Both the position numbers and the translations under genes were made by a program. Under the pieces are notes generated by a model. It made no database searches and was not told the origin of the DNA. It saw only the letters and a list, made by a program, of their open reading frames with translations. From Bacillota bacterium (lineage in GTDB: Bacteria > Bacillota > Sulfobacillia > JAJYWN01 > JAJZPE01), in NCBI GenBank assembly GCA_021811325.1, contig JAJZPE010000008.1, positions 1 through 43,414 on the forward strand: a DNA stretch of 43,414 nt, written 5' to 3'. Shown here piece after piece: positions 842-28,825 of the stretch (positions within the stretch are counted from its first letter, which is position 1; each line of letters begins with the position of its first letter).

Positions 842-1809
842 AGGTAAACGGATGGGAATGGCGAATCACGGTGGAGGGCGAGGTGGAGGACGGAAAGGCG
901 AGGCCGGAACCACGGCTGGTAGATAGAGAGCCGCAGAGAGGGTGGGCCGGGGTGGCCAGGGAAATGAGCGAACAGACCGCAGGCGAGCTTGGGACGAGGG
1001 TCATCGACCTGGAGGTCGACCGTATTGGGAAGAACCCGTACCAGCCGAGGAAGGACTTCGACCCGGAGAAGCTGGCCGAGCTGTCCCTGTCGCTGCGCCG
1101 GCATGGCGTTCTCCAACCCCTGATTGTGCGCCGGGTGCCAAGTGGCTACGAGTTGGTGGCCGGGGAGAGGCGGTTGCGGGCCGCCGTGATGGCCGGCCTG
1201 AAGAAGGTGCCGGTCATCGTCCGGGATACGGCCCAGGAAGAGCAGGCCGTGTTGAGTCTGGTCGAGAACCTGCAACGGGAGAACCTCAACTGTCTCGAGG
1301 AGGCCCTCGGCTACCGCCGGCTCATCGAAGAGTATGGACTGACCCAGGAGGAATTGGGCCAGCGCCTCGGGCGTAGCCAGCCGACCATCGCCAACAAGCT
1401 CAGGCTGCTGAAGCTGAGTGCGGCCGTGCAGGAGATGGTCCGGGCCGGTCGCCTGAGTGAGACCCACGCGCGCGCCTTGTTGCGGCTCGAGGATTCGAAG
1501 CAGGCCGAGGAACTGGGTCAGCGGATCATCCAGGAGGGCCTGTCGGTCCGCCGGACTGAGGAGATAGTCAACGTGGTGGCGGAGGGAATTTCCCGTGAAA
1601 TGAACCCGGTCGGGGGCGGGGGGCAGAAGGTCCTCAGGGTCTTCAAAGACGTCAGGATCTTCCTCAACACCTTCCGTCAGGCGGTGAAGATGCTGCGGGA
1701 AGCTGGGATAAAGGCTCATATGAACGAGGTTGACCGCGGCGAGTACATCGAGGTGACCGTGCGGATTCCCCGGAGCGACGACCACGGCGGCAAGCGAAAG
1801 AGCCGGTAG
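838..1809 (+). CDS. noc: Noc-type ParB-family nucleoid occlusion protein
   Basis: This is a ParB/Spo0J-family CTPase and DNA-binding protein. The ParB N-domain (NPYQPRKDF, then GVLQPLIVRR and the CTP-binding VAGERRLRAA) is followed by LVENLQREN and a helix-turn-helix around TQEELGQRLGRSQPTIANKLRLL. Its place directly after rsmG and before parA-parB, as a second paralogue, is that of Noc, which keeps the division septum off the nucleoid. The start is uncertain. GTG 838 overlaps the rsmG stop (GTGA), but GTG 871, GTG 952 and ATG 964 are in frame, and the conserved domain begins only near base 1000. The N-terminus does not clearly show the membrane-binding amphipathic helix known from Bacillus Noc, so it could instead be a plain ParB paralogue. 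Confidence 0.85.
   Translation: MKVNGWEWRITVEGEVEDGKARPEPRLVDREPQRGWAGVAREMSEQTAGELGTRVIDLEVDRIGKNPYQPRKDFDPEKLAELSLSLRRHGVLQPLIVRRVPSGYELVAGERRLRAAVMAGLKKVPVIVRDTAQEEQAVLSLVENLQRENLNCLEEALGYRRLIEEYGLTQEELGQRLGRSQPTIANKLRLLKLSAAVQEMVRAGRLSETHARALLRLEDSKQAEELGQRIIQEGLSVRRTEEIVNVVAEGISREMNPVGGGGQKVLRVFKDVRIFLNTFRQAVKMLREAGIKAHMNEVDRGEYIEVTVRIPRSDDHGGKRKSR
1588..1601. promoter_or_regulatory. Candidate Noc-binding site (NBS/parS hybrid) inside noc
   Basis: The 14-mer ATTTCCCGTGAAAT differs at one base from the Bacillus Noc-binding consensus ATTTCCCGGGAAAT. Its right half, CGTGAAA, is identical to the right half of parS (TTTCACGTGAAA), so the site lies between the two specificities. It sits within the noc coding sequence, much as parS lies within parB further downstream. 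Only one copy was noticed in this window. Binding is inferred from sequence similarity alone. Confidence 0.5.
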
Positions 1810-1890
1810 AAAAAAATATTCCAGCGCAAGAAGGACTTTGGCGAATTATGGAGAAATAACGAAGACACAGCAGAATAGGGTGAAAAGGTT

Positions 1891-1978
1891 TCTTCCCGAT
1901 AAAGGCAAACCTGACGAAAGACAGGGACGCAAAGCCACGGGTCTAACGCGCAAGCTATGACGGCCGGGCTACCGAAGG
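1891..1978 (+). ncRNA. Cyclic di-GMP-I riboswitch (GEMM-I)
   Basis: The 169 bases after noc include the hallmark GEMM-I core: AGGCAAACC, a CGAAAG tetraloop hairpin, GGGACGCAAAGCC, then GGTCTAA, a variable hairpin and GGGCTACCG. These match the conserved positions of the class-I c-di-GMP aptamer, including the GAAA tetraloop and its receptor side. A terminator hairpin follows at 1999-2037, before the ParM-like gene, so the switch probably acts on transcription termination. Whether c-di-GMP turns the gene on or off cannot be read with certainty without folding the expression platform. Confidence 0.93.
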
Positions 1979-1998
1979 AGGGCAGATTTTTGGGACGT

Positions 1999-2037
1999 CC
2001 CGCCTTTTCGGCATCACCACGGGAAAGGCGGGTTTTT
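1999..2037 (+). terminator. Intrinsic terminator of the c-di-GMP riboswitch platform
   Basis: CCCGCCTTT (1999-2007) pairs perfectly with AAAGGCGGG (2024-2032), a 9-bp stem, directly followed by TTTTT (2033-2037). It lies between the aptamer and the ribosome binding site of the actin-like gene. It therefore serves as the off-state structure of the riboswitch rather than as the end of noc only. Confidence 0.88.
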
Positions 2038-2112
2038 ATGTTTTCCAACAGCGAACGGGTTCCTGACCACGGAGCGGGAAGGACTGAAAACCACAGGGAG
2101 GTGGATGGTTCG

Positions 2113-3141
2113 TTGGGCAGGAAGAGTTTAGGGATCGATCTGGGTTACGGGTTCGTGAAGGGCACGGACGGGGAGAAGGAGTGCTTGTTCCCGAGCGTCG
2201 TGGGTCTCGGGCAACCTCTTTCTTACCAGTCCGAGCTGAATGACCGGAGCCGATTGGTCGACAACCTGGTGGTCAGCGTCGGTGGACGGCGGTATTTTGT
2301 CGGTGACCTCGCGAGACGTCAAAGCGAGATAGCCGCCAGGTCCCTGGACCCGAATCGGGTTCAGGACAAAAACGTCAGGGTGCTGATGCTGGCAACGCTC
2401 GGGGTGTTCGCCTCCGAGCCGAGGCAGTCATTCAGCGTAGTCACCGGCTTGCCGACCAACTATTACGCTAGCTACCGCGACGGGTTGGCGGAGGCTCTGC
2501 GCGGCGCCCACGAGGTCACTGTCCACGAGACGGGGACTGATCGGGACCTGGTAGTCGACGTCGACAAAGTCAAGGTCGTGCCTCAGCCGTTTGGGACCTT
2601 ATTCGATCAGGCCCTGGACGACCTGGGGCGGGTTGTGGACCAGGAGCTGAGCAAGGCCAAGGTGGGCATCATCGACATCGGCTTCAAGACCGCGGACTTC
2701 GCCGTGGCCGACTCGATGGAGTTCATCGACCGGCTTAGCACCTCGACCACGACCGGCCTGGCCAGCGCCTACGGGATTATCGCGAACAAGCTACGCGAGA
2801 TTTTCGCCATCGACAAGGAAAACTACGAACTCGATGAAATCGTCGAGCGGGGCGAGATCCGCATCGCCGGCAAGTCATATGACCTCACGGAGTTCAAGAA
2901 GGAGACTCTCGAGTGGGTGGCGGCCAAGATCATTACCGTCGTCGACTCGCTGTGGGACTACCGGGATCTTGACAAAATCCTGATCACGGGCGGCGGAGGG
3001 CAGGCCCTGGGGCAGTATCTGATGCCCGAATTTCCCAACGCCAGAATCGTCGAAGGGGCCCAGATGGCCAACGCCAGGGGGTTCTACAAGCTGGCGAAGA
3101 AAGTCTTCAAGAACGAGAACGGCAACCCGTTCTCGCAGTGA
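2113..3141 (+). CDS. ParM/StbA-like actin-family ATPase
   Basis: The 342-residue protein starts GRKSLGIDLGYGFVKG, the phosphate-1 loop of the actin/Hsp70 ATPase fold. A second phosphate loop follows at VGIIDIGFKTADFAV (about residues 181-195) and an adenosine-site motif at ILITGGGGQALG (about 290-301). Length and motifs fit ParM/Alp/StbA filament-forming proteins that move plasmids or other cargo by polymerisation. The frame is open upstream to 1957, but that stretch contains the riboswitch terminator. The chosen TTG 2113 has a strong AGGGAGGTGG site at 2095-2104, and its product begins like other ParM proteins. The gene is the only one between two terminators, so it is monocistronic. No ParR-like adaptor gene is adjacent, so its cargo is unknown. 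Confidence 0.85.
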   Translation: MGRKSLGIDLGYGFVKGTDGEKECLFPSVVGLGQPLSYQSELNDRSRLVDNLVVSVGGRRYFVGDLARRQSEIAARSLDPNRVQDKNVRVLMLATLGVFASEPRQSFSVVTGLPTNYYASYRDGLAEALRGAHEVTVHETGTDRDLVVDVDKVKVVPQPFGTLFDQALDDLGRVVDQELSKAKVGIIDIGFKTADFAVADSMEFIDRLSTSTTTGLASAYGIIANKLREIFAIDKENYELDEIVERGEIRIAGKSYDLTEFKKETLEWVAAKIITVVDSLWDYRDLDKILITGGGGQALGQYLMPEFPNARIVEGAQMANARGFYKLAKKVFKNENGNPFSQ

Positions 3142-3169
3142 GTCTAGGAAGGGAACCCTACTTCGAGTG

Positions 3170-3200
3170 AGGAGGCGGCATCAGGTCGCCTCTTTTTTTT
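3170..3200 (+). terminator. Intrinsic terminator after the actin-like gene
   Basis: GAGGCG (3172-3177) pairs with CGCCTC (3187-3192), with a short loop, followed by eight T residues (3193-3200). It separates the riboswitch-controlled gene from parA. The following 210 bases up to parA show no convincing promoter hexamers. Confidence 0.85.
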
Positions 3201-3410: not shown

Positions 3411-4196
3411 GTGAGTAGAGTCATAGCGATCGCCAACCAGAAAGGCGGCGTCGGGAAGACGACAACCGCGGTCAACCTCGGGGCAGCGTTGGCGGCCTTG
3501 GGGTACCGCGTCCTGGTGGTCGACATTGACCCCCAGGGCAATACCACCAGCGGGTTCGGGGTCAACAAGAAAAAGATCACGCAATGTGTCTACCAGGTCC
3601 TGATTGACGAAGTGCCGATGCGAGAGGTCGTCGTGAAGACGTCGGCCACCAGCTTGGACCTCGTCCCCTCGACGATCGACCTGGCGGGCGCGGAGGTCGA
3701 GCTGGTCCCGGCCATGTCCCGCGAGACCAAGTTGAAGAAGGCCTTGGCGGATCTGAGAGACGACTATGATTTCGTCCTCATGGACTGCCCGCCTTCGCTC
3801 GGGTTGTTGACCGTCAACGCCCTCACCGCGGCCGATTCCGTGCTTGTCCCCATCCAGTGCGAGTACTACGCCCTGGAGGGCCTGACTCAGTTGATGAACA
3901 CGGTTCACCTGGTTCAGAACCACCTCAATGCCGGCCTACAGCTCGAGGGGGTAGTCTTGACGATGTATGATGCCCGGACCAACCTCTCGGCGCAGGTGGC
4001 GGAGGAGGTCAGGCGGTTCTTTCGGGAAAAGGTCTACCGGACAATCATCCCACGGAACATACGGCTAAGCGAGGCGCCCAGCTACGGGAAACCAATCATT
4101 GCTTACGACCCGAAGTCGAAGGGCGCAGAGGTGTATACGGAACTGGCGAAGGAGGTTGCTCTGCATGCCGAAGCGGGGGCTAGGCAGAGGGCTTGA
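3411..4196 (+). CDS. parA: Chromosome-partitioning ATPase ParA (Soj)
   Basis: ParA is a deviant Walker ATPase that forms ATP-dependent dimers on DNA and works with ParB-parS to separate origins; in Bacillus Soj also regulates DnaA. The 261-residue product begins SRVIAIANQKGGVGKTTTAVNLG, the deviant Walker A motif with its signature lysine. It continues with VVDIDPQGN (A' motif) and DFVLMDCPPSLG (Walker B). There is no N-terminal helix-turn-helix, so it is the short chromosomal type. Start GTG 3411 has GGGTGAT just upstream and AAGGAG a little further. The last 32 bases overlap parB, implying coupled translation. Confidence 0.96.
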   Translation: MSRVIAIANQKGGVGKTTTAVNLGAALAALGYRVLVVDIDPQGNTTSGFGVNKKKITQCVYQVLIDEVPMREVVVKTSATSLDLVPSTIDLAGAEVELVPAMSRETKLKKALADLRDDYDFVLMDCPPSLGLLTVNALTAADSVLVPIQCEYYALEGLTQLMNTVHLVQNHLNAGLQLEGVVLTMYDARTNLSAQVAEEVRRFFREKVYRTIIPRNIRLSEAPSYGKPIIAYDPKSKGAEVYTELAKEVALHAEAGARQRA

Positions 4197-5064
4197 GGCT
4201 CTTCTCCCGGGAAACGAGGAAGTGGCGGGAGAAGCCTCGCAACTGCCGATAAGCGCGATCAGACCGAACAGATATCAGCCGCGCCGGCTGATGGACGAGG
4301 CGAAACTGACCGAGCTGACCGAATCCATCCGCGAACACGGCGTTGTGCAACCCATCCTGGTCCGGGCGGTCGACGACGGATACGAGCTGGTCGCCGGCGA
4401 GAGGCGCTGGCGTGCCGCTCAACTTGCCGGGTTGGCCGAGATTCCGGCCGTGGTCAGGGACTACGATGACGCCCAGAGCATGGAGATTGCCCTCGTCGAG
4501 AACCTGCAACGGGAGGACCTGAACCCGCTTGAAGAGGCCGATGCCTTTCGCAGGCTGATGGATGAGTTCAACCTCACCCAGGAGGCGGTGGCGCAGAAGG
4601 TGGGAAGAAGCCGTCCGGCGGTAGCCAACGCGTTGAGGTTGCTGACCCTGCCCGAAGCGATTCGCCAGGATGTTTCACGTGGAACCATTTCGGCTGGACA
4701 CGCCCGAGCCATCCTTTCACTGGACCGGGACGACCTCAGGCAACGCCTGGCTGAGGCCGTCAAGACCAGGAGCCTCTCGGTCCGCCAGGCGGAGGAACTT
4801 GCAAGGGAGCTTCCGAAGCAGAGACAGCCCAGGGCCAAGGCCGCAAGAGCCCATAGCGACCCCATCCTATCGGAGGTCGAGGAGAACCTCAGGCGCGCCT
4901 TCGGCACGCAGGTGCGGATCAAGCAGAGCAGGGGGAAGGACACGGGGCGCATCGAGGTCGAGTACTACACGCGCGAGGACTTGGAGAGGATTCTTGACCT
5001 GGTCCTCGGCCGGCGGCTACCAGCGGAATCCAGAGGGCCCGTCCCCAAACAGTTTCCGACCTAA
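4165..5064 (+). CDS. parB: Chromosome-partitioning protein ParB (Spo0J)
   Basis: ParB is a CTP-dependent DNA clamp that loads at parS, spreads, and recruits ParA and SMC. The 299-residue product begins with the family hallmark MPKRGLGRGLEALLP. It then shows NRYQPRR, GVVQPILVR, the CTP-binding VAGERRWRAAQLAG, LVENLQREDLNPLEEA and the HTH LTQEAVAQKVGRSRPAVANALRLL. A C-terminal dimerisation region closes it. The frame is open earlier, but ATG 4165 has a perfect AAGGAGG at 4149-4155 and yields the conserved N-terminus. It overlaps parA. A parS site lies within the gene at 4671-4686, as in Bacillus spo0J. Confidence 0.97.
   Translation: MPKRGLGRGLEALLPGNEEVAGEASQLPISAIRPNRYQPRRLMDEAKLTELTESIREHGVVQPILVRAVDDGYELVAGERRWRAAQLAGLAEIPAVVRDYDDAQSMEIALVENLQREDLNPLEEADAFRRLMDEFNLTQEAVAQKVGRSRPAVANALRLLTLPEAIRQDVSRGTISAGHARAILSLDRDDLRQRLAEAVKTRSLSVRQAEELARELPKQRQPRAKAARAHSDPILSEVEENLRRAFGTQVRIKQSRGKDTGRIEVEYYTREDLERILDLVLGRRLPAESRGPVPKQFPT
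4671..4686. promoter_or_regulatory. parS centromere site within parB
   Basis: TGTTTCACGTGGAACC matches the bacterial parS consensus TGTTTCACGTGAAACA at 14 of 16 positions, including the whole central TTTCACGTG. Its location inside the parB coding region is the same as one of the B. subtilis parS sites. It is the loading point for ParB clamps and marks the region as origin-proximal. Confidence 0.88.
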
Positions 5065-8676: not shown

Positions 8677-8692
8677 ACCTTTAATTGAATAA

Positions 8693-8799
8693 ATCTTCAG
8701 GGCAGGGTGTAATTCCCGACCGGCGGTATAGCCCGCGAACCGTAAGGTTGATTCGGTGAAACTCCGAAGCCGACAGTAAAGTCTGGATGGAAGAAGATT
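8693..8799 (+). ncRNA. FMN riboswitch (RFN element)
   Basis: The element contains the near-invariant RFN segments: ATCTTCAGGGCAGGGTG, AATTCCCGACCGGCGGTA, AGCCCGCGA, GATTCGGTGAAACTCCGAAGCC, GACAGTAAAGTCTGGATG and the closing GAAGAAGAT that pairs with ATCTTC to form P1. It binds FMN and represses riboflavin genes. The terminator at 8858-8895 is its likely expression platform, ahead of ribD. Confidence 0.97.
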
Positions 8800-8857
8800 A
8801 ACAATGGGTTTTGGTTATTGACATGTATGAATGTTAATAACCAAACTGTTTACGGTA

Positions 8858-15236: not shown

Positions 15237-15311
15237 GAAGGAATTGGTAGACGGGCGCCGAACACCTGAAGTTACCGGATGAGCGTCCAACCGTTGTGGG
15301 GGGTGAAAAGC

Positions 15312-16295
15312 TTGACCGCCCGTCGCGGCCGAAAACTTTTTACCGTGATGATTATTCCCCACTCGGAGAGGTCTGTCTATAGCTTCAGCATCCACCTGAC
15401 GACCGTCCAGGTGGCCAGCTTCGTGTTGATCGCGCTTAGCCTGTCGCTTCTAATATTCGCCAACATCTATCAGGACATGAAGGCCAACATGACCGAGCTG
15501 AAGGAGCTTCGCCTGGTCAACCGGGAGCAGCGCCAACAGCTCGAAAAACTGATGGCTGAAACGAATCAGTTGAAAGAGAACTTGCAGCAGCTGTCCGAGC
15601 TGGACAGGCAGATCCGCGAAATCATCAAGACGAGCCGGGACTTCAACCGCGTTCAGCTGTCCACGGCCTTCCAGCCCAGCACGTTCAGCAACCCGACGGC
15701 TGCGGCCGGCGGCAGCGAGCCGTCTGGTTACACCACGGCTTCCATCCTACCGGGCGATGACCGCGCGAGCCAGGCCAGCCAGGACATCCTGGCCCGGGCG
15801 GGCCGGCTTCAGAACGACCTCAGTGCCGTCCAGAAGGACATGACCAACCGGGTCGTCAGCTTCGAGGACCTCCGCAAGGAACTCACCGAGAACCAGCTGT
15901 ACCAGGCGGCCAGGCCGTCGGTCTTCCCGACGAACGGGGTCATCACCTCGGGCTTCGGGTTCCGCCCCTCGCCGCTCGGGTTCGGTACGGAGTACCACTC
16001 CGGCCTGGATATCGCCGCCGCCTACGGGACCCCGATCATCGCCACCGGTGATGGCAAGGTCGTCTTTGTCGGCTGGCGCGGTGGGCTGGGCCGGGCTGCG
16101 GTCATCGAGCACGGGTATGGATTCAGCACTCTATACGGGCATACCCAGAAGATCATCGTCAAAGTCGGCGACCGCGTCAAGAAAGGGCAGACCATCGGCT
16201 ACGTCGGCAGTTCCGGGCGCAGCACCGGACCGCACCTCCACTACGAGGTGTGGATGAATGGCAAACCTGTCAACCCTCGTTCCTACACCCAGTAA
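15312..16295 (+). CDS. Membrane-anchored M23 peptidoglycan endopeptidase
   Basis: The product has a short basic N-terminus and one transmembrane helix (VASFVLIALSLSLLIFANIY). A coiled-coil region of about 75 residues follows (ELKELRLVNREQRQQLEKLM and on), then a Ser/Ala linker, and a C-terminal LytM/M23 domain from about residue 220. Zinc ligands are visible in YHSGLDIAA and GPHLHYEVW. Such proteins cut or activate cell-wall cross-link cleavage during growth or sporulation. TTG 15312 has GGGGGGTGA 6 bases ahead and gives a 327-residue product. ATG 15279 is in frame but lacks a ribosome binding site. The next gene is a bactofilin, a pair often found together in cell-shape modules. Confidence 0.9.
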   Translation: MTARRGRKLFTVMIIPHSERSVYSFSIHLTTVQVASFVLIALSLSLLIFANIYQDMKANMTELKELRLVNREQRQQLEKLMAETNQLKENLQQLSELDRQIREIIKTSRDFNRVQLSTAFQPSTFSNPTAAAGGSEPSGYTTASILPGDDRASQASQDILARAGRLQNDLSAVQKDMTNRVVSFEDLRKELTENQLYQAARPSVFPTNGVITSGFGFRPSPLGFGTEYHSGLDIAAAYGTPIIATGDGKVVFVGWRGGLGRAAVIEHGYGFSTLYGHTQKIIVKVGDRVKKGQTIGYVGSSGRSTGPHLHYEVWMNGKPVNPRSYTQ

Positions 16296-16341
16296 GGACT
16301 CCGCCCGGCCCAGGGACGGGCAAGAAAGCAGGGAGGCTGAC

Positions 16342-16740
16342 ATGTTCGGAAAGAAGGATGGGCGGGACATCGCCATGGAGAAGATTGACACCATCGTCGG
16401 CAAGGAGACCGAGTTCAAAGGGGTCCTCAACTCGACCGGGGTCCTCAGGGTTGACGGCAAGGTCGAGGGCGAGATTCACCACCGCGGCGACCTCATCGTC
16501 GGAGAGACCGGCGTCGTCGTGGCCACCATCATCCGGGCGCGGCACATCAGCATCGCCGGCCAGGTCAAGGGGAATGTAGAGGCCGAAGGCAAGCTCGAGC
16601 TGGTCACCACCGGGCGCCTGTATGGCGATATAAAGGTAGCCGGGTTGATCATCGGCGAGGGGGCCGTCTTCAGGGGCAATAGCGAGATGAAGACAGGCGA
16701 AGAAAAACCGGCTCTCAAGCCGAAACCCTCACCGGTCTAA
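16342..16740 (+). CDS. Bactofilin
   Basis: Bactofilins are small beta-helical cytoskeletal proteins that polymerise without nucleotide and position wall-modifying enzymes. The 132-residue product has the repeating beta-helix pattern (FKGVLNSTGVLRVDGKVEGEI, DLIVGETGVVVATI, ISIAGQVKGNVEAEGKLELV, GRLYGDIKVAGLIIGEGAVFRG) flanked by short disordered ends. ATG 16342 has GGGAGG 7 bases ahead. It follows the M23 peptidase by 46 bases and is closed by a terminator, so the two probably form one unit acting on cell shape or spore formation. Confidence 0.93.
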   Translation: MFGKKDGRDIAMEKIDTIVGKETEFKGVLNSTGVLRVDGKVEGEIHHRGDLIVGETGVVVATIIRARHISIAGQVKGNVEAEGKLELVTTGRLYGDIKVAGLIIGEGAVFRGNSEMKTGEEKPALKPKPSPV

Positions 16741-27200: not shown

Positions 27201-28825
27201 AGGCGGTCGACGCCCGCGACCACCATACCCGGGCCCATTCGACCCGCGTGGCCCGCTACGCCCTGATGATCGCCCGCGAGATGGGGCTGCCCAAAGGCTA
27301 CCTGGCGACCATCGAATATGCGGGCCTCCTGCACGATATCGGCAAGATCGGCTTGGACGACGGGATTCTCAGGAAGAAAGGGGTCCTCGACCCCCTCGAG
27401 CGGGCCCAGATGATGGAGCACCCGACGAAAGGCGCGAACATCCTGCAACAGGTGGCCCCCTTCCGCGAGATCGTACCGCTCGTCAAGCACCACCACGAAT
27501 GGTGGGCCGGCGGGGGTTACCCCGATGGCATGAGCGGTGAGGCCATCCCGCTCGGGTCGAGGGTCCTGGCCGTCGCCGACGCCTTTGACGCGATGACCAC
27601 CGACCGTCCCTACCGCCTCGGCCTGACCCCCATGGAAGCCGTCAGTCGGCTACAGGCTGGCAGTGGCACGCAGTTCGACCCGGCCGTGGTCGACGCCTTC
27701 GTGGCCCACCTGGCCAAGCTCAAGGAGGCCCAGGACATCGTTTACACGGCCCTTGAGAAGAGGATCCGCGACCATCCGGCCGACTTCGGCGAGCTCCAGC
27801 CCGAGGCGACCATCGGCCGCATCCTCCCGGTCCACGGGAAGGAGCTGGGCATCCTCTACCAGATATCCCTGGAGACCCGGTCGCTCTTGAACCTGTCCCA
27901 CCTGATGCACCGCATCCTCACCATCCTTTACGACGCCATAGGCCCCAACACTTACGGCCTGCTCCTGGTCGAACCGGAGTCCGGCGATCTGGCCATCAAG
28001 GCCTCCGTCGGCCTTCCTGAGTTGACCGCCGAGCGCCGGGTCCCGAAAGGTCAAGGCGTCACCGGTTGGGTGGCCGAGCATGGGTTACCACAGGTCATCG
28101 GGGATGTGCGGACCGATACGCGCTACCTCCCCGGGCCGAACGTCGGGGCCCGCTCGGTGTTGGCCGTCCCGCTGATCGTTGAAGGTCGCACCATCGGCGT
28201 CCTCGACGTTGAGTCCGACCAGCTGAACGCCTTTTCGCGGGACGACCTCTACCTCCTGAGCGCGGTCGCCGGGCAGATTTCCATCGCCATCGAGGTCGCC
28301 AGGTACCACGAGCAGGTCGCCCACGCCGCCACCCACGACGGGTTGACGGGCACGTACAACCACTCCTACTTCTATCGGCGCCTCGAGGAGGAAATCGAGC
28401 GGGCCCAACGCGAGGCTTCCTCCCTGGCTGTCGTCCTCCTCGACGTGGATAACCTCAAACTGGTCAACGACGTGCACGGGCACCTGGCGGGCGACCGCGC
28501 CCTGGTCGAACTGGCCGCCGTCGTGAACCACAACTTCCGGCCCTCGGACACCATCGCCCGATACGGCGGCGACGAGTTCGCCGTCATCCTGCCCCGTGCC
28601 GGGCCGGCCGAGGCCAGACAGGCCACTGATCGGCTGGCCGCCAGCATTTCCAGGCGTACGGTCGAGGTCCAGGGCCGCGGGTTCAACCTGCCGGGGGTCA
28701 CCGTCGGCATCGCCGTATACCCCGACGACGGTTCACGCCCAACCGAACTTGTGGCTCGGGCCGACGAACGCATGTACCTCCTGAAGCAGGAGAAGGCCCA
28801 GGAAGGGCCGGTCCTCAGGCCCTGA
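24296..28825 (+). CDS. Multi-GAF/PAS protein with HD-GYP and GGDEF domains
   Basis: The 1509-residue soluble protein has no membrane segment. Order, by eye: GAF (about 20-175), PAS (180-300), four more GAF-like domains (300-960), HD-GYP phosphodiesterase (965-1160), another GAF (1190-1335), GGDEF (1345-1500). The HD-GYP has HTRAHSTRVARYA, HDIGK (about 1013) and HHHEWWAGGGYPDG (about 1066). The cyclase has YGGDEFAV (GGDEF at 1424-1428), and RPSD five residues ahead is a product-inhibition I-site. It may therefore both make and degrade c-di-GMP according to ligands bound by its GAF domains. ATG 24296 with GAGGGAG 6 bases ahead is chosen over TTG 24272. It is transcribed alone, between two hairpins. 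Confidence 0.93.
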   Translation: MASREPKRLPVNGSAVSEATRRILAKIDLRQVLGQMMDEVVSIFGLSDASVLLLDDQGKDLVVAAWRSVNGEAPPLGYRLKVGHGMIGQAALTAKTQVANDVSRNPHFVRDFSTKTRAELSLPLVKDGKVLGVLDMQSPRLNAFTADMLPGLRAFAEEAALAVERATLYQNAREWSQRLEALMNASDAGILMTDTDRRVQVANRRCGEVLGIDPDHLRGQKAPGVLLERLQSRAAEPRQLERLLATTYASETRTIKEEIDLVRPPETTLSVFSTPVYDSKGKATGRLLTISDISSERRAQSHLKATSAAALALSSSLDLDTVFRALGRAIQGLIPFDRLSLAVVDEQRRLFRPLAVQGLLNQAFNDRDWQPLDGTRIGRAVGTKAPLLTRDLDQAEQSFPEDEVLKDTGLRCILCLPLIFGDHCLGTFNMASARPGAYDDLTLQALGPIVDNLTVAVNNALMHQQANERAEQNAALNWIIGAVTAAPTLETLVPQLAATMSEVLSLDYLSVALRTEGGPLEVIAASITPDADRGWEIKRLRRLNPPAEDDQVAEAAFGAPWNAQKAARATARIEFKGRELGTLNLSRSPGPDFSPGEKEFIDRVAAQLAGSIENSRLYEKVREEADTSSALLEVARTVARRADQQEVFAVAATCLRKVLEYQTLLIYLLNPDGRLMRLAFRAGQAPPGGESALSAVEVDRKFTTIAEMMGSNDITVISGTDGHPMKTIFAPLGLSTLALAALRSGGETLGALAVGCGPSARLTEKHERVIKGLAGQIATAIQEGRLRGKLERKVSQLTAISRASHHLTAILDLPVLLQEVVAFLAHDLGYDYAGVLLHDKEAEELRLEAQAGRLAGLVPAGYTQSVNLGATGWAARNAKPLVSESANAGDRCPGSLELPSKARMCLPLMVGQEVLGVLDLESVKPGVFTDDEVTAVDTLARQLAIAIHNAAVFKRERELYMSAVKTLAEAVDARDHHTRAHSTRVARYALMIAREMGLPKGYLATIEYAGLLHDIGKIGLDDGILRKKGVLDPLERAQMMEHPTKGANILQQVAPFREIVPLVKHHHEWWAGGGYPDGMSGEAIPLGSRVLAVADAFDAMTTDRPYRLGLTPMEAVSRLQAGSGTQFDPAVVDAFVAHLAKLKEAQDIVYTALEKRIRDHPADFGELQPEATIGRILPVHGKELGILYQISLETRSLLNLSHLMHRILTILYDAIGPNTYGLLLVEPESGDLAIKASVGLPELTAERRVPKGQGVTGWVAEHGLPQVIGDVRTDTRYLPGPNVGARSVLAVPLIVEGRTIGVLDVESDQLNAFSRDDLYLLSAVAGQISIAIEVARYHEQVAHAATHDGLTGTYNHSYFYRRLEEEIERAQREASSLAVVLLDVDNLKLVNDVHGHLAGDRALVELAAVVNHNFRPSDTIARYGGDEFAVILPRAGPAEARQATDRLAASISRRTVEVQGRGFNLPGVTVGIAVYPDDGSRPTELVARADERMYLLKQEKAQEGPVLRP

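Follow-up and report, generated by a model that had tools for sequence, protein, structure and literature searches.

A c-di-GMP-I riboswitch precedes a stand-alone chromosomal actin-like gene with a possible connection to bactofilins

The stretch of DNA analysed here (the window, 43,414 nucleotides) corresponds to contig C33 in the draft genome (2.79 Mb) of a Bacillota bacterium. Between noc and parA, it contains a self-contained transcription unit composed of a riboswitch aptamer, a terminator, a gene for an actin-like protein (ALP) with a strong ribosome-binding site, and a second terminator of its own. The features of the locus are as follows:

964..1809, plus strand: noc, ParB-family nucleoid occlusion protein (TIGR04285, 302 bits with a cut-off of 315; HTH_ParB, ParB_N)
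1588-1601: Noc-site-like sequence inside noc (ATTTCCCGTGAAAT, one mismatch)
1888..1983, plus strand: c-di-GMP class-I riboswitch aptamer (Rfam core 1895-1977; RF03167, 75.2 bits; own model R1, 97.6 bits)
1972..2011, plus strand: candidate antiterminator, 3' strand of P1 CCGAA (1972-1976) with UUCGG (2007-2011)
1999..2037, plus strand: expression-platform terminator of the intrinsic type (stem of 9 bp, 1999-2007/2024-2032; U-run 2033-2037)
2113..3141, plus strand: actin-like ATPase (ALP, 342 aa, TTG start; Pfam ALP_N 4.5e-36, MreB-like_C 1.3e-14)
3169..3195, plus strand: terminator closing the ALP transcription unit (11-pair stem and T-run)
3411..4196, plus strand: parA, a separate unit 3' of ALP (AAA_31, 6e-73)
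4168..5064, plus strand: parB (ParB_N, 2.7e-37)
4671-4686: parS-like site inside parB (TGTTTCACGTGGAACC, two mismatches; 0.03 matches expected for the pattern)
15279..16295, plus strand: M23-type peptidase just before the bactofilin gene (ORF, LytM-like C-terminus; read by similarity)
16258..16740, plus strand: bactofilin, candidate partner, 13.2 kb 3' of ALP (own bactofilin HMM, E 1.2e-49; ORF)

The earlier note on this DNA had described a 342-residue actin-like ATPase with its own terminator between noc and parA, and the ORF, its Pfam matches and the closing hairpin agree with this description. When three mismatches were allowed, Noc-like matches were not more numerous than expected by chance.

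The aptamer, which had been described as a full GEMM-I element at 1891-1978, was recovered by an Infernal search with Rfam models (cmscan), its score lying above the gathering score of 59 (E 3.4e-16); one further match from the same clan was suppressed. The core is canonical (GGCAAACC ... GACGCAAAGCC), and neither GGCAAACC nor GCAAAGC varied among the 11 copies aligned. The presumed ligand contacts are those of the Vc2 structure.

The top Rfam label for this aptamer was c-di-GMP-I-GGC (RF03167), a class reportedly defined in Weinberg 2017. This label would speak for an aptamer that senses another ligand, either as a member of the GGC class or as a cGAMP-type variant. However, the window lacks the variant-defining base: where the GGC consensus GACGCGAA has G, the window sequence GACGCAAA has A, as in canonical c-di-GMP-I, and the pocket stretch is GACGCAAAGCC compared to GACGCGAAGCC in the consensus. 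According to our own reading of the printed consensus and of the class name, G in place of the pocket A would be the hallmark of the GGC class. GGCAAACC was retained throughout the aligned copies and, moreover, the copies of G014 and L063 were best fitted by canonical RF01051, a model with which relatives' aptamers scored 79.6 and 57.3 bits (threshold 35). Membership in the GGC variant was rejected on account of the canonical A in the pocket, and we regard a different ligand as highly improbable.

Three further distinct class-I aptamers above threshold were detected in the genome. Judged by their sequences, the genes downstream of these aptamers are flgB-flgC-fliE, a type IV pilin-like gene and a gene for a membrane HD-domain protein, respectively, and a fifth, partial aptamer at a contig end is a repeat of the flgB copy. 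The genome also encodes seven GGDEF domains, one of them in the window (28328-28798). From the canonical pocket A, the target genes of the other aptamers and the GGDEF domains, ordinary c-di-GMP is the expected ligand of the window aptamer.

The hairpin and U-run of the expression platform lie where the earlier note had drawn its terminator: CCCGCCUUU (1999-2007) pairs with AAAGGCGGG (2024-2032), with a predicted hairpin energy of about -20 kcal/mol (RNAfold), and is followed by UUUUU (2033-2037). Both hairpin and U-run are preserved in two genomes of the same family (G001 and G002). The candidate antiterminator pairing CCGAA/UUCGG is incompatible with both P1 and the terminator, and UUUUCGG, which reaches into the terminator loop, was kept in three of three family members, while other loop bases varied. 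Pairing of the P1 3' strand with the 5' arm of a terminator is the usual OFF layout, and the leader of flgB in this genome looks similar. In three Syntrophomonadaceae leaders, a U-tract is located directly 3' of P1, so that stabilisation of P1 should lead to termination. From these architectures, c-di-GMP probably turns the ALP gene off. The sign rests on architecture, since the complementarity between P1 and the terminator arm was not above that of shuffled sequence in the leaders tested (the leader of the HD-domain gene was left out), and since equilibrium folding in the absence of ligand prefers the terminator. Folding of the leader, which had been proposed as a check, was not decisive: the antiterminator pairing can form, but the unliganded equilibrium fold still contains the terminator.

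The same equilibrium fold, together with the inferential basis of the sign, is what would favour an ON switch, in which c-di-GMP raises expression and the filament belongs to a sessile or sporulating programme. The ability of the P1 3' strand to pair with the terminator 5' arm, the alike flgB leader and the P1-U-tract order in Syntrophomonadaceae all argue against this arrangement, and we consider it unlikely. Under the OFF arrangement, which we prefer, the 3' strand of P1 would pair with the 5' arm of the terminator when c-di-GMP is low, i.e. in the motile state; this antiterminator pairing would allow RNA polymerase to read through and the filament protein would be made. When c-di-GMP is high, the ligand would lock P1, the terminator would form and ALP expression would stop. 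The proposal of the earlier note that the c-di-GMP level sets the amount of filament protein is plausible, the sign having been left unaddressed there. Further upstream, a promoter-like block (AGGAnnTTGGCgnATTATG..GAAATA) was noticed by eye at 1829-1862 and also upstream of L057 and L059; it occurs in homologues with and without the aptamer.

As for the gene itself, an AGGGAGG ribosome-binding site lies upstream of the TTG at 2113. An alternative in-frame ATG at 2038, inside the U-run of the terminator, would add 25 residues, and the start codon is thus uncertain. The 25-codon open stretch 2038-2112 is partly conserved in three relatives and may represent an alternative start or a conserved leader. 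The protein contains ParM-type motifs and a predicted actin-fold ATPase domain (AlphaFold AF2 model, pLDDT 88, pTM 0.88), and its nucleotide-binding residues are invariant across 18 homologues. The nearest solved structure is that of the chromosome-encoded ParM Dh-cParM1 (TM 0.86, 24% identity); next in rank come plasmid ParMs of Firmicutes, Ta0583 from archaea, and CorM. The best-ranked plasmid homologue is 28.9% identical, and the closest match among phages and plasmids is the gp27.9/27.8 region of phage SPO1 (33.8%), an actin-like protein of the same ALP superfamily which differs in being phage-borne and in its context. Since homologues exist on plasmids and phages but none of them is close, a recent origin from either was rejected.

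Several other identities were considered and rejected as well: i) MreB, since no PF06723 (MreB_Mbl) match was obtained and the genome encodes MreB separately, so ALP is not the MreB of the cell; ii) FcmB, since NCBIfam NF052678 gave 60.8 bits against a cut-off of 300; and iii) a ParMRC plasmid partition system, since no ParR adjoins the gene, the locus is chromosomal and plasmid homologues are about 29% identical. As the earlier note had stated, no ParR adaptor accompanies the gene: its only adjacent genes are noc and parA, and no ParR-sized gene was recognised next to ALP either here or at the Syntrophomonadaceae loci. The label 'ParM/StbA' used in that note is too specific, given that the nearest structure is chromosomal and that identity to plasmid ParMs does not exceed about 29%. 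Judging from the model and the motifs, ALP would be a chromosomal ParM-type actin that binds ATP, with neither ParR nor parC adjacent, and it may be expected to form filaments. In a separate genome (G004), three tandem actin-like genes were found (L045:112-3555), which are 38-54% identical to the window's ALP.

Two published groups of chromosomal actins invite comparison. Dh-cParM1 and Cb-cParM (PMC12270681) share chromosomal location and the actin fold with ALP but have ParR candidates, and the 2025 paper on these chromosome-encoded ParMs mentions neither riboswitches nor c-di-GMP. FcmB/CorM of filamentous cyanobacteria (PMC12645912; PDB 9rmi) is likewise a chromosomal actin, of ParM descent, and FcmB acts in cell shape; however, it is distant from ALP, its partner is FcmC or CorR rather than a bactofilin, and the abstract mentions no riboswitch.

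To examine how often the aptamer accompanies the gene, homologues were collected class-wide (154 genomes), as well as from relatives and from contigs of named genomes. Eleven aptamers were used to build a covariance model, and a scan of 99 loci (0.96 Mb) with this model returned ten strong matches (71-107 bits), every one of them directly before an ALP gene; the next-best match anywhere reached 18 bits. Several of the scanned aptamers had served to build the model, and Rfam models confirm the matches that were checked independently. Eight of 43 Syntrophomonadaceae genomes carry an ALP gene at least 79% identical to the query, and the aptamer is present in all eight. Altogether, the class-I aptamer and ALP were paired in 12 genomes. 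A tree of the protein divides these carriers among three separate clades, namely the family of the window, G014 and Syntrophomonadaceae. In the 12 linked aptamers, 97.2% of helix cells are paired and 16 cells show double changes, a level reached by no shuffle (the alignment being fitted to the model). A degenerate aptamer-like sequence before ALP in G041 (L041:6298-6394; 11.5 bits, E 2.4) was not significant and was not counted.

The genomes concerned are rich in class-I aptamers, with 3-13 in each Syntrophomonadaceae carrier that was searched, and this raises the base rate of chance linkage. Nevertheless, the presence of the same aptamer at the same place before homologues of other genomes, together with the compensatory changes in its helices, indicates on sequence grounds that the linkage is real and goes beyond chance. 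It is also of limited spread: when 80 regions upstream of more distant ALP_N genes from the phylum were examined, no class-I aptamer was found, hence predicted class-I control is restricted to few lineages. ALP follows ddl directly both in G014, where the aptamer is present, and in G037, where it is absent; this identical context makes it probable that the locus stayed in place while the aptamer was gained or lost.

A second route to the same control is suggested by class-II c-di-GMP aptamers, whose RNA fold is unrelated to that of class I. Among 80 genomes with ALP genes, 35 class-II matches were found, two of them directly before an ALP gene, while about 0.02 such coincidences would be expected by chance (a rough estimate from 35 matches, ~100 ALP genes and ~200,000 genes). 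In the complete genome G217, the aptamer (56.8 bits, threshold 53.5) heads an apparent operon of ALP, bactofilin and M23 peptidase genes (L225:2718-5520). In G047, the II-GAG variant fits better, with a marginal 48.3 bits against 40; several of its P1 pairs are broken and nothing reached the threshold in the related G059, so we keep it as a weak candidate. Since the two classes are different folds, these cases look like an independent recruitment of c-di-GMP control over ALP.

The recurrence also bears on the possibility that ALP is a relic or a domesticated phage or plasmid actin which came to lie behind c-di-GMP riboswitches that were already there, without acquiring an integrated role. Such an origin would fit the SPO1 homologue, the closest among phages and plasmids, and the fact that the genomic location of ALP differs between lineages. 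On the other hand, the nucleotide-binding residues are invariant, ALP is 87-92% identical within the family, and aptamer and terminator are conserved; the linkage was retained in eight of eight Syntrophomonadaceae carriers and was reached with two aptamer classes. We therefore find a relic quite improbable.

The neighbourhood of ALP differs between lineages in a way that bears on its function. The order noc-ALP-parA was limited to the family of the window (G000, G001, G002); in other genomes, ALP follows ddl, is located next to genes of the SAH-hydrolase or molybdenum-hydroxylase type, or precedes a bactofilin gene. Membership in the par locus was accordingly rejected as a general feature of ALP. 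The sister clade has about 35-42% identity, and in nearly all of its Bacillota genomes that were examined, which belong to several families, a bactofilin gene is located directly 3' of ALP, on the same strand and either 47-155 bases after ALP or overlapping its end. In Aquisalimonas and Halorhodospira, the bactofilin gene lies 250-310 bases upstream of ALP. In the window's clade, no bactofilin gene directly adjacent to ALP was found; within the window's family, one is present on the strand of ALP in the surroundings of the par genes, 6.4-7.4 kb downstream in relatives and 13 kb in the window. The intervening region includes an FMN riboswitch (8689-8802, 124.8 bits) upstream of a ribD-like gene, and G+C content drops to 46-59% at ~8-14 kb, a stretch that includes this riboswitch, compared to ~65% around it. 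This low-G+C segment between parB and the M23-bactofilin pair looks like acquired DNA.

Two readings of these neighbourhoods can be compared. The first, close to that of the earlier note, is a DNA-segregating chromosomal ParM that moves the origin or forespore DNA via an adaptor and whose amount is set by c-di-GMP. Its position between noc and parA, the parS-like site in parB and the Noc-site-like sequence in noc would agree with this, as would the closest fold, that of Dh-cParM1, and the homology to plasmid ParMs. However, only one family has ALP in the par locus, no ParR-sized neighbour was recognised in the window or at Syntrophomonadaceae loci, a chromosomal ParABS is already there, and in sister clades it is bactofilin that pairs with ALP. 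We hold segregation to be rather unlikely. The second reading is a cytoskeletal role with bactofilin. In B. subtilis, assembly of the flagellar hook and filament requires bactofilins (PMC4627819), and in M. xanthus the ParABS system is positioned by them (PMC5703909). The sister-clade linkage and these published roles lead us to favour a cytoskeletal role over DNA partition, although a partnership in the window itself would have to be extrapolated from relatives, the bactofilin gene not being directly adjacent here.

With regard to the earlier note, its observation is confirmed and its interpretation partly supported. The survey of genomes that it had suggested showed that the linkage of riboswitch and ALP recurs, and this part is stronger than the single sequence could tell; the placement beside parAB does not recur beyond one family, so the par locus is a local circumstance rather than a part of the system. 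Instead of the chromosome origin or forespore DNA as cargo, the neighbourhoods point to a bactofilin-related cytoskeleton.

Targets of c-di-GMP riboswitches are mostly genes of motility, adhesion and signalling, and to our knowledge no actin-like filament protein is among those of class I. The statement of the earlier note that ALP is not a textbook target holds insofar as this target appears undescribed in the searchable literature: among the open-access papers retrieved, no title or abstract described ALP or ParM with a c-di-GMP riboswitch, or bactofilin with ParM, though an entry in an older gene-association table is possible. The riboswitch shares fold, core bases and terminator platform with known c-di-GMP-I (GEMM-I) elements (RF01051/RF03167) and differs in its target, an actin-like gene. 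Similarly, bactofilin-M23 modules and BacEF of B. subtilis are the known systems nearest to the bactofilin side; here, the bactofilin adjoins ALP homologues, and the G217 operon adds the M23 peptidase. We know of no dedicated actin-like ATPase in the known bactofilin-M23 modules.

On balance, we lean towards the explanation that the window carries a stand-alone chromosomal actin-like gene under a c-di-GMP-I riboswitch, expressed at low and shut off at high c-di-GMP, whose product belongs to a bactofilin-linked cytoskeleton. The filament protein would most probably work with bactofilin polymers in membrane-associated cytoskeletal organisation, its proposed tasks being flagellar or envelope assembly, cell shape or pole organisation rather than plasmid partition. 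A broader proposal is that widespread chromosomal actins and bactofilins form a two-polymer cytoskeleton which came independently under c-di-GMP via two unrelated riboswitch classes in several lineages; this is conceivable, and we offer it tentatively, with more doubt than confidence. Through the linkage to bactofilin, chromosomal 'ParM' proteins gain a specific candidate partner, and their role becomes testable. A recurrent actin-like target of two unrelated aptamer folds would tie the motile/sessile decision directly to the cytoskeleton and, if the broader proposal is true, the motile/sessile signal would directly assemble or dismantle an actin-bactofilin cytoskeleton.
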